From the NCBI GenBank assembly GCA_027618515.1, contig JAQCEV010000023.1:1-34220 (forward strand): a stretch of 34,220 bases of DNA. Direction: 5' to 3'. Of the stretch, positions 30,425 to 33,162 are shown one piece after another. Below the pieces are notes generated by a model, which made no database searches, was not told where the DNA came from, and was given only the letters and a program-made list of their open reading frames with translations. Both the position numbers and the translations under genes were made by a program. This DNA comes from Chloroflexota bacterium (GTDB lineage Bacteria; Chloroflexota; Dehalococcoidia; Lucifugimonadales; Australimonadaceae). The first letter of the stretch is position 1; every line of letters begins with the position of its first letter.

Positions 30425-30531
30425 GAGCGTTCGTTGAGAGCCACTGAGTCGGAGAGTCCGGCCCACGTAGCCCCCTATGCGGAGTAGGCTAACCGCCGCG
30501 CAGGGAACAACCAATGAAGGGGGTTGCCATC

Positions 30532-31764
30532 ATGTCCCACGTATTGTCTCTACGGTGCAAGGAGTGCTCCCGGGAATACCCGGTCGAGGCGCTCAATGTC
30601 TGCGATTTCTGCTTCGGTCCGCTTGAGGTTGTCTACGACCTCCAAGCTATCGCCAAATCGACCTCTCGTGAAAAGATCGCGAGTGGCCCGAATAGCCTTT
30701 GGCGTTACGCGGACTTCCTCCCTGCCGAGTACAACCCAGCCATCGACATCAACGCGGGATTCACCCCGCTCATCCGCTCGCGTGGTCTCGCCGAGCGGCT
30801 AGGTCTCGACGAGCTCTGGATCAAGAACGACAGCGTCAATCCGTCGTACTCGTTCAAGGATCGCGTTGTCGCCGTGGCCGCAGCGAAGGCGCTGGAGCTC
30901 GGCTTCGACACCATCGCATGTGCGTCCACCGGCAATCTCGCCTGCGCCGTAGCGGCCGTCGCCGCGCGCTCCGGCATGAAGTCCTACGTGTTCATCCCGT
31001 CTAACCTTGAGGCCGGAAAGATCCTGGGCGCCGCGATCTACAACCCCACCATGGTTGCCATCGACGGCTCCTACGACGACGTCAACCGGCTCTGCAGCGA
31101 GATCGCGGATTCCTATCCGTGGGCATTCGTGAACATCAACGTCCGGCCGTTCTACGCTGACGGCAGCAAGACGCTGGGCTACGAAGTTGCGGAGCAGCTA
31201 GGTTGGCGCGCACCGGATCACGCCGTAGCACCATCCGCCTCAGGCGCGATGTTCACCAAGATTTACCAGGGCCTCAAAGAATTCGAAGCCACTGGCCTCA
31301 TCAGTCATGTCCACACCAAGATGCACTCGGCCCAGGCCCGCGGATGCAGCCCTATCGCATCGGCCTACGAAGAAGGTCGGTTCGTGATCCGCCCCGTGAA
31401 GCCCAGCAGCCTTGCCACATCGCTGGCCATCGGCAACCCAGCCGACGGCTACTACGCACTCAAGGTCATCGAAGCGTCCGGCGGCTCTGCCGTCATCGCA
31501 GAAGAGAACGAGATCGCCGATGGCGTCAAGCTCCTCGCGGAAACCGAAGGCATCTTCACCGAAGGCGCTGGCGGGGTAGCCATCACTGGCCTGAAACATT
31601 TGGTCGAGACAGGTAAGATTAAGCGCGACGAGTCCGTCGTCGTCTACATCACGGGCAACGGACTCAAAACAACCGAACTGGTCGCTGACGTGGTCAACCC
31701 CGTGCTCATCGAACCTAACGTAGAAGCGTTCGAAGCGGCCATGGCTGCCCGAGCGGCCAAGTAG
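30532..31764 (+). CDS. thrC: threonine synthase-like PLP enzyme with N-terminal zinc ribbon
   Basis: The protein has 410 residues from ATG 30532, chosen for the AAGGGGG site at 30517-30523; an in-frame ATG at 30514 overlaps that site. The N-terminal zinc ribbon has C9-x-x-C12 and C24-x-x-C27. The fold-type II PLP core has Lys 109 in NPSYSFKDRV, the phosphate loop CASTGNLACAV, and a C-terminal GNGLK segment. This form is standard for threonine synthase, which turns O-phosphohomoserine into threonine. The cysteine synthase-like family (CysM2, HcyS partners) is similar. It is followed directly by a NIL-domain gene and a ubiquitin-like sulfur carrier, so an alternative role in sulfur insertion is possible. 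Confidence 0.88.
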   Translation: MSHVLSLRCKECSREYPVEALNVCDFCFGPLEVVYDLQAIAKSTSREKIASGPNSLWRYADFLPAEYNPAIDINAGFTPLIRSRGLAERLGLDELWIKNDSVNPSYSFKDRVVAVAAAKALELGFDTIACASTGNLACAVAAVAARSGMKSYVFIPSNLEAGKILGAAIYNPTMVAIDGSYDDVNRLCSEIADSYPWAFVNINVRPFYADGSKTLGYEVAEQLGWRAPDHAVAPSASGAMFTKIYQGLKEFEATGLISHVHTKMHSAQARGCSPIASAYEEGRFVIRPVKPSSLATSLAIGNPADGYYALKVIEASGGSAVIAEENEIADGVKLLAETEGIFTEGAGGVAITGLKHLVETGKIKRDESVVVYITGNGLKTTELVADVVNPVLIEPNVEAFEAAMAARAAK

Positions 31765-31784
31765 CAGTAGCAGGCGTAACCGAC

Positions 31785-32027
31785 ATGCCCATTGAAAAAG
31801 TACGATTGACGTTCCTGGACAGGCTCATTAAAGAGCCTGTCATCTACAGAGTGGGTCGCGACTTCAAAGTTGAAACCAATATCCGCCGTGCTGACATCCA
31901 AGAAGGTATCGGATGGGTCATCCTCGAACTTGAAGGGGAACAGAAGTCCATCGATGATGCCCTGGAATGGGTTCGGTCGGTCGGTGTTCGGGTCGACCCA
32001 GCAGTGGGCGACGTAGTCGAAGGCTAG
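31785..32027 (+). CDS. NIL-domain protein
   Basis: This 80-residue stand-alone NIL domain (the ACT-like module otherwise found at the end of the methionine importer ATPase MetN) reads VRLTFLDRLIKEPVIYRVGRDFKVETNIRRADIQ through GWVILELEGEQKSIDDALEWV, split into its beta-alpha-beta units. In MetN it binds methionine. In methanogens a NIL-ferredoxin fusion takes part in making homocysteine from sulfide; the iron-sulfur part is absent here. It starts at ATG 31785, 20 bases after the PLP enzyme, and ends TAG. Confidence 0.88.
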   Translation: MPIEKVRLTFLDRLIKEPVIYRVGRDFKVETNIRRADIQEGIGWVILELEGEQKSIDDALEWVRSVGVRVDPAVGDVVEG

Positions 32028-32048
32028 CGAAAGCTAACCCAATCAGCA

Positions 32049-32074
32049 CGGCCATCGGCGCACGCCGATGGCCG
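32049..32074. repeat. 12-bp perfect inverted repeat between NIL and carrier genes
   Basis: CGGCCATCGGCG and CGCCGATGGCCG are exact inverse copies around a two-base centre. No U-run follows, so it is not a normal terminator. It hides an in-frame ATG (32068) and ends 20 bases before the carrier's start codon. It may serve as an RNA processing or stability element that sets carrier level. Confidence 0.7.
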
Positions 32075-32094
32075 ATGGAAAGAAGGCAAGCTAC

Positions 32095-32373
32095 ATGAGC
32101 GTAACGGTACGCATCCCTGGCCCGCTTCGGAAGATCACCGAAGGCGCGGACAAGGTACAGATGGAAGGCGAAGACCTCAGTCAACTTATCAGTGCCCTGG
32201 AGGCCCAATTCCCGGGCATGCAAGAGCGCCTGCTAGACGACAACGGTGAATTGCGCTACTTCGTGAATCTCTACCTGAACAACGAGGACATCAGGTTCCT
32301 CGATGGTCTCAAGACCGCCGTCAAGTCAGGCGACGAGATCAGCATCGTTCCCGCCGTCGCTGGCGGCTGCTAG
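32095..32373 (+). CDS. MoaD/ThiS-like ubiquitin-fold sulfur carrier ending Gly-Gly-Cys
   Basis: The protein has 92 residues from ATG 32095, preceded by AGAAGG (32081-32086); an earlier ATG at 32068 lies inside a hairpin. SVTVRIPGPLRKITEGADKV, LISALEAQFPGMQERL, NLYLNNEDIRFLDGLKT and GDEISIVPAVAGG are the beta-grasp family pattern. Carriers of this type are activated at a C-terminal Gly-Gly by an E1-like enzyme and turned into a thiocarboxylate. Here one extra residue, Cys 92, follows the Gly-Gly, so it would need trimming first, as in QbsE. The genomic neighbours suggest amino-acid sulfur transfer rather than molybdopterin work. No E1 or JAMM protease is in the window. Confidence 0.9.
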   Translation: MSVTVRIPGPLRKITEGADKVQMEGEDLSQLISALEAQFPGMQERLLDDNGELRYFVNLYLNNEDIRFLDGLKTAVKSGDEISIVPAVAGGC

Positions 32374-32406
32374 CTCGAACGCATCTCCATCAAGGGAGCA
32401 TAAGAC

Positions 32407-33162
32407 ATCGAGCCTCAGCCCAAAGACTCCGACCGGGTAGACGACGAGCCTGAAGTAGACGAGCCAGAAGACGACGAGTCCGACGAGTTCGAGGATTACG
32501 ACGACGATGAGCTCGACGAATTCGAAGAACTCAACGCGTCGAACTCCTCGGCAACGTTCCTCGATCAGCGCTGGTTTCGTTGGGTTGCCATCGGCATAGC
32601 GGCTCTTGTCGTGATGTCGTTTTCGCTGCCCGTCCTTGCTCCGTTTTTCGGCAACAGCTCCCCCAGCGCTGCTGATCCCAACGAGCCTCAATCCCTCCCC
32701 GACTTCATCCTGCCCACCGCAGATGGTGGAGACATGCGCCTCTCTGAGCGCGCCGCTTCCTACTCCACCATCGTCCTCATCTTCCACCGTGGTTACGACT
32801 GCACAGGTTGCCGCGCCCAGCTTGCTGAACTGCAATCCGGCTACAACGACCTGCGCATCGAAGGCGCTGAAGTCCTCGCCATCGGCCTCGACGACCAACT
32901 CAACACGCAACGACTCGCGCAGCAATTGAACGTCCGCTTCCCCATGCTCGTCGACGCAACTGGCGTAGTCGCCTCCAGTTACGGCCTCCGTCAAGCACTC
33001 GAGACCGACTTCACCAGCGCGATCCTGATCCTGAACGGTGATCTCCAGTTGCTCGCCACTCGCCTCGCGACCAGCACCGACCAAACCCTACCGGTAGAAG
33101 CCATCGTCGACGCGATTCGCGAAGCCAATGGCACCGGCAACGCAGGCGGCACCGCTAGCTAG
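32407..33162 (+). CDS. membrane-anchored peroxiredoxin-like protein with non-standard ATC start
   Basis: About 251 residues, if translation begins at ATC 32407. An AGGGAG site (32393-32398) sits eight bases upstream, a TAA is two codons before, and no ATG, GTG or TTG occurs in frame until 32611, which is inside the membrane helix. The N-terminal 45 residues are rich in Asp and Glu, then comes RWFRWVAIGIAALVVMSFSL, one helix, and an outside redoxin domain: LPDFILPTADGGDMRL, IVLIFHRGYDCTGCRAQLAEL with Cys-x-x-Cys where the peroxidatic Cys is expected, VLAIGLDD, and FPMLVDATGVVASSYGLRQ. It probably reduces peroxides or acts as a thiol oxidoreductase. It follows the sulfur carrier gene by 33 bases. 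Confidence 0.82.
   Translation: MEPQPKDSDRVDDEPEVDEPEDDESDEFEDYDDDELDEFEELNASNSSATFLDQRWFRWVAIGIAALVVMSFSLPVLAPFFGNSSPSAADPNEPQSLPDFILPTADGGDMRLSERAASYSTIVLIFHRGYDCTGCRAQLAELQSGYNDLRIEGAEVLAIGLDDQLNTQRLAQQLNVRFPMLVDATGVVASSYGLRQALETDFTSAILILNGDLQLLATRLATSTDQTLPVEAIVDAIREANGTGNAGGTAS

Follow-up and report, generated by a model that had tools for sequence, protein, structure and literature searches.

The window analysed here is the whole 34,220-nucleotide stretch of contig JAQCEV010000023.1 (assembly GCA_027618515.1) from a bacterium of the Chloroflexota (Dehalococcoidia; Lucifugimonadales; Australimonadaceae). Near its end, three consecutive genes lie on the forward strand. The first, metM (30532-31764), encodes a ThrC-like, PLP-dependent predicted homocysteine synthase with an N-terminal four-cysteine motif (C9, C12, C24 and C27). 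The metM frame is open from 30514, and the ATG at 30532 is the better-supported start because relatives preserve the ribosome-binding site and GGTTGCC before that ATG. In profile searches, the product matched PALP (E=2e-66) and scored 265 bits against TIGR00260, for which the cut-off is 167. The second gene (31785-32027) encodes an 80-amino acid, stand-alone NIL domain protein (E=1e-15) of the type that we refer to as cassette NIL. The third, metO, encodes a ubiquitin-like sulfur carrier that matched the ThiS family (E=1e-15) and scored above the curated cut-off for SAMP1; its ORF opens at 32068, with translation more likely to start at 32095 (MSVTVRIP), as in relatives, and it ends at 32373 with AVAGGC, i.e., a GG followed by one cysteine. 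These searches confirmed a ThrC-like PLP enzyme, a lone NIL domain and a MoaD/ThiS-like carrier where the preliminary description had placed them, and the peroxiredoxin gene that it had noted downstream of the carrier on the same strand is also present. Relatives of the peroxiredoxin lie beside the carrier only in the closest kin of the window. The corresponding peroxiredoxin-like ORF (32404-33162) features an acidic N-terminus and a likely membrane segment, and no ATG, GTG or TTG lies near its expected start.

Maximum-likelihood analysis placed the window enzyme within a MetM clade of 28 rows (support 99/97), which contains members from Chloroflexota, Cyanobacteriota, Nitrospirota, Nitrospinota, Aquificota, Methylomirabilota and Actinomycetota, as well as a Syntrophaceae member and an archaeon. 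This clade is separate from the ThrC proteins of Bacillus, Aquifex, Thermus and Mycobacterium and from the ThrC of the source genome, and the window enzyme did not group with CysM/CysK either. MetM of Streptomyces albulus was not among the rows, and the link of the window enzyme to it runs through the Nonomuraea and cyanobacterial members of the clade. In the alignment, 29 columns separate MetM from ThrC, and the window enzyme has the MetM-type residue in 28 of them and the ThrC-type residue in one. One of these diagnostic columns corresponds to R160 of Thermus ThrC, which is a tyrosine in all MetM rows and which we take to belong to the substrate-phosphate site of ThrC. By the tree and these columns, the window enzyme shows neither the grouping nor the specific residues of ThrC, although it scores above the TIGR00260 cut-off. 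The four-cysteine motif is invariant across 25 aligned relatives, the PLP lysine is expected at K109 within SFKD, and an AlphaFold model of MetM has a ThrC-like fold (mean pLDDT 89.6).

The MetM/MetO pathway was published in 2024 and is not new here. PMC12172450, which cites Hasebe et al. (2024, 10.1128/aem.01247-24), presents S. albulus MetM as a novel homocysteine synthase that uses O-phosphohomoserine to form homocysteine, and describes a carrier gene similar to metO as a neighbour of metM and a SAM riboswitch upstream of metM in S. albulus. The same text reports threonine synthase and deaminase activity for a Microcystis relative that is 51.6% identical to S. albulus MetM, for which MetM function is unconfirmed and which lacks a SAM riboswitch upstream (PMC12172450). 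Because this regulatory trait varies within the group, we do not treat the riboswitch as defining MetM/MetO. In S. albulus, the thiocarboxylate of the carrier is said to be the sulfur source for MetM. The window shares with that system a ThrC-like enzyme with a neighbouring carrier, and many relatives of the window share its SAM riboswitch; the window differs in having a NIL gene between enzyme and carrier, a leader that is not an Rfam SAM riboswitch, and a carrier that ends in GG-C. A second comparison is with mycobacterial CysO-CysM-Mec, as the window carrier is nearest to CysO among PDB entries (E=4e-22) and shares the logic of an E1 and a JAMM protease, whereas its partner is ThrC-like rather than CysM and its relatives are under methionine rather than cysteine regulation. 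Wolinella succinogenes reportedly uses HcyS, HcyD and HcyF with MetY (Krishnamoorthy and Begley, 2011, a work cited in PMC5764234), so that a protein thiocarboxylate, a protease and an E1 serve homocysteine synthesis, as proposed here. The Wolinella enzyme, however, is MetY of the Cys_Met_Meta_PP family, to which the source genome has only weak partial matches. Published work on contiguous riboswitches and on riboswitch regulons, in its accessible parts, does not describe the operon.

The source genome is a 3.0-Mb MAG in 178 contigs that is 93.8% complete, and absences from it are therefore not absolute. It encodes a single E1 (contig C94, ThiF E=2e-84), which adjoins a CysM-like gene, and a JAMM protease (contig C112, Prok-JAB E=1e-17); the preliminary description had proposed a search for both. 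Homoserine kinase (thrB, above cut-off) and homoserine dehydrogenase (hom) are present, as is a 1173-amino acid MetH-like frame with an S-methyl_trans domain. We did not find a full-length Cys_Met_Meta_PP protein (PF01053; MetB/MetY/MetZ family) in the 93.8% complete MAG, in which four weak partial matches resemble aminotransferases and a SufS-like protein, nor did we find HcyBio in it. The genome has further ThiS-family matches. One is a MoaD-MoaE fusion (L144), and we rejected the carrier as the MoaD of molybdopterin synthesis given this fusion elsewhere. Another, on contig C67, is a second carrier-like ORF (L146:1441-1779) that has IPAIAGG followed by a tail of approximately 17 residues and lies beside a xanthine dehydrogenase-like gene.

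These genes very probably make up one route, in which every catalytic step is predicted. MetO ends in GG-C and trimming would therefore be needed: the JAMM protease would remove the terminal cysteine and expose the GG, which the single E1 would adenylate for conversion to a thiocarboxylate. The hom and thrB products would supply O-phosphohomoserine to MetM, which would eliminate phosphate through PLP and add sulfur from MetO-COSH to yield homocysteine, and the MetH-like protein would then methylate homocysteine.

The metM-NIL-carrier order is far from chance, as it recurs across Chloroflexota and has variants in other phyla, which answers the question of conserved neighbours raised by the preliminary description. 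MetM was detected in 124 of 301 Chloroflexota genomes (E<=1e-80). Among 30 Chloroflexota loci, some of which end at a contig edge, the carrier lies beside and downstream of MetM in 26 and NIL is present in 19. Gene order varies among the named genomes, with MetM-NIL-MetO seen in Chloroflexota, MetM-MetO-NIL in Nitrospirota and Nitrospinota, and NIL-MetM-MetO in one Methylomirabilota; cyanobacteria and two of four Aquificota loci have MetM-MetO without NIL, and the remaining two Aquificota loci have no carrier near MetM. Downstream of metM-NIL-metO in one relative, a fusion gene that combines a ThiS-family carrier with an E1 (ThiF) adjoins a CysM-like gene (L105:6371-7219). A strong PF01053 match is missing from 52 of the 124 MetM genomes versus 18 of the 177 others (Fisher 3e-10, uncorrected for kinship), as expected if MetM replaces the Cys_Met_Meta_PP route. 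In one genome (G298), MetM is immediately preceded by a Cys_Met_Meta_PP enzyme (L163:1025-3465), which indicates that both routes can coexist. A genome of the same class as the source (G007) lacks both MetM and a strong PF01053 match and encodes HcyBio with a NIL-ferredoxin instead. There, HcyBio (DUF39) adjoins the NIL-ferredoxin gene (L159:1285-3734), and a neighbouring 249-amino acid ORF has no Pfam match.

Regulatory elements precede the operon in relatives. Of 29 Chloroflexota relatives, 13 have a SAM riboswitch scoring over the gathering threshold upstream of metM; riboswitches over that threshold were likewise found in Nonomuraea, one further actinomycete, L105 and a Methylomirabilota, where the order SAM riboswitch-NIL-MetM-MetO places NIL under the shared riboswitch. 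T-box leaders precede metM in eight relatives, with one over the gathering score and the others at E values no weaker than about 1e-11. The specifier is AUG (methionine) in the five alignments inspected, whereas L046 also has a divergent T-box with ACC (threonine), which provides an internal contrast. Methionine T-boxes precede what databases name threonine synthase in L045, L046, L029, L031 and L032, mostly together with a SAM riboswitch. Because SAM riboswitches and methionine T-boxes precede metM in relatives, we conclude that the operon is tied to methionine, not to threonine or cysteine.

The corresponding region of the window has no Rfam match to either a SAM riboswitch or a T-box. It contains a candidate leader RNA (30476-30528, forward strand), for which Rfam likewise gave no match. 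A hairpin stem would form between 30476-30481 and 30497-30502, and its loop contains GGC-N-AACC (30487-30494), which could base-pair with GGTTGCC (30522-30528) where ribosomes would bind ahead of metM. The loop consensus RAGUAGGCNAACCGY, which is complementary to GGUUGCC, occurs in all four genomes searched of the window's family and in L064, and it is absent from L065 and L066. Across these five sequences, 98.5% of pair cells are standard, two pairs covary and the pseudoknot helix is invariant. Outside the family, the motif gave eight matches, all with two mismatches, versus six for a reversed control; seven of the eight loci lack a MetM-like neighbour, and at the eighth (L062) the sole such protein falls with ThrC in the tree. 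The leader is thus a candidate small regulatory pseudoknot over the metM ribosome-binding site, and only a candidate because the five sequences are closely related.

We weighed two other functions for the window enzyme. One is that of a threonine synthase, whether ordinary or additional, with the carrier and NIL belonging elsewhere. There are three arguments for it: NCBIfam TIGR00260 labels the window enzyme thrC, its closest solved relatives by sequence and PDB fold are threonine synthases, and the cyanobacterial relative has threonine synthase activity in vitro (PMC12172450). Against it stand the MetM-type residues in 28 of the 29 diagnostic columns, including the tyrosine at the R160 position, the SAM riboswitch and methionine T-box control in relatives, and a canonical ThrC elsewhere in the genome. 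This 354-amino acid protein adjoins homoserine dehydrogenase in a hom-thrC pair on contig C95, and its presence led us to reject the idea that the window enzyme is the only threonine synthase of the genome; a third, divergent ThrC-like protein is encoded on contig C4. The search for another ThrC that the preliminary description had advised found a second, canonical copy, with the ThrC-diagnostic residues replaced in the window enzyme; with the neighbours conserved as well, each result runs counter to what that description had named as refuting its proposal. We regard the threonine synthase function as very improbable.

The other function is a carrier-dependent cysteine synthase of the CysO-CysM type that acts on O-acetylserine or O-phosphoserine. 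Two observations favour this function: mycobacterial CysO is the nearest solved carrier, and the E1 of the source genome has a CysM-like neighbour. Cysteine is already covered, however, by this CysM-like gene and a further CysK/M-like one, and the window enzyme groups away from both, while its relatives are under methionine/SAM rather than cysteine control. On tree placement, the cysteine genes elsewhere and the methionine control in relatives, we rejected a cysteine synthase, which has hardly any chance of being correct. The same methionine-type riboswitches disfavour what the preliminary description had listed as alternatives, namely a cysteine product, a serine ester as substrate, or mere co-regulation of threonine and sulfur flow. 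Its leading suggestion, that the PLP enzyme uses an activated homoserine ester and carrier sulfur to make homocysteine, is supported and equals the function reported for MetM/MetO in PMC12172450. Apart from the riboswitch, the window operon fits MetM/MetO in all genome-level features tested. Taken together, the sequence evidence suggests that the trio is very probably an operon for a MetM/MetO-type homocysteine synthase and its NIL subunit.

Within this predicted homocysteine synthase operon, NIL looks like a third partner of MetM/MetO, judging from its distribution. Cassette-type NIL (E<1e-22) occurs in 71 of the 124 Chloroflexota genomes with MetM versus 5 of the 177 others (Fisher 1.5e-28, uncorrected for kinship). 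In half of these 71 genomes, the NIL gene does not adjoin metM. In two such genomes examined, it is fused to the C-terminus of a Gfo/Idh/MocA-type oxidoreductase encoded away from metM (L155:1988-3259 in G213, assigned by Pfam, and L156:1926-3200 in G133, assigned by sequence). At two further loci, MetO and NIL are fused in one 171-amino acid ORF (L098:4288-4803 and L139:1809-2324), in which NIL follows the carrier GG and cleavage would be needed to expose it; in L098, a rhodanese-E1, a JAMM protease and the start of a CysM-like gene lie downstream of the fusion.

The role of NIL is predicted from its relatives. The only PDB relatives of cassette NIL are the C2 (NIL) domains of MetN, from which it differs in standing alone beside an enzyme and a carrier rather than at the end of an ABC ATPase. 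N32 of the window protein aligns with MetN N295, and this asparagine is invariant in 12 aligned proteins. In E. coli MetNI, N295 is required for L-methionine binding and inhibition (PMC12357092). We favour a methionine-sensing NIL because of this alignment and invariance. An alternative, by analogy with the NIL-ferredoxin proteins of HcyBio (DUF39) systems, is that NIL brings MetO to MetM as a subunit for sulfur handing or docking. Cassette NIL would likewise belong to a homocysteine pathway; work on methanogens connects NIL-ferredoxin with homocysteine synthesis (PMC5764234), NIL-ferredoxin lies beside HcyBio in G007, and the MetO-NIL fusions also favour such a subunit. HcyBio was not found in the source genome, however, and the window NIL has no ferredoxin domain. 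The alignment of cassette NIL revealed no ferredoxin part and no conserved cysteine, which argues against sulfur handing, as do the MetN C2 relatives and the invariant methionine-binding asparagine. We give the sulfur-handing role somewhat less than an even chance, and NIL is most likely a methionine-sensing partner of MetM/MetO.

A limited literature search found no report of NIL associated with MetM. The near confinement of cassette NIL to MetM genomes, its several gene orders, the shared SAM riboswitch and the carrier fusion are thus possibly new. More tentatively, and with the odds against all of its parts holding, NIL might be a true third component that reuses the MetN C2 trick as a methionine-sensing subunit gating MetM/MetO, with an undescribed pseudoknot RNA controlling metM in the window's family.

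The homocysteine synthase that many bacteria appear to be missing goes unrecognized because annotations call MetM a threonine synthase. Aquifex aeolicus is among the species whose homocysteine pathway remained to be found (Price et al., PMC5764234), and we found that Aquificota encode MetM (L119:2317-3546, L095 and L130), with L119 coming from a MAG labelled Aquifex aeolicus. The dataset maps where MetM occurs, Aquificota included. The NIL link offers a cheap, testable idea on how the pathway may be regulated, and NIL connects three NIL-using systems around methionine: MetN, HcyBio and MetM/MetO.
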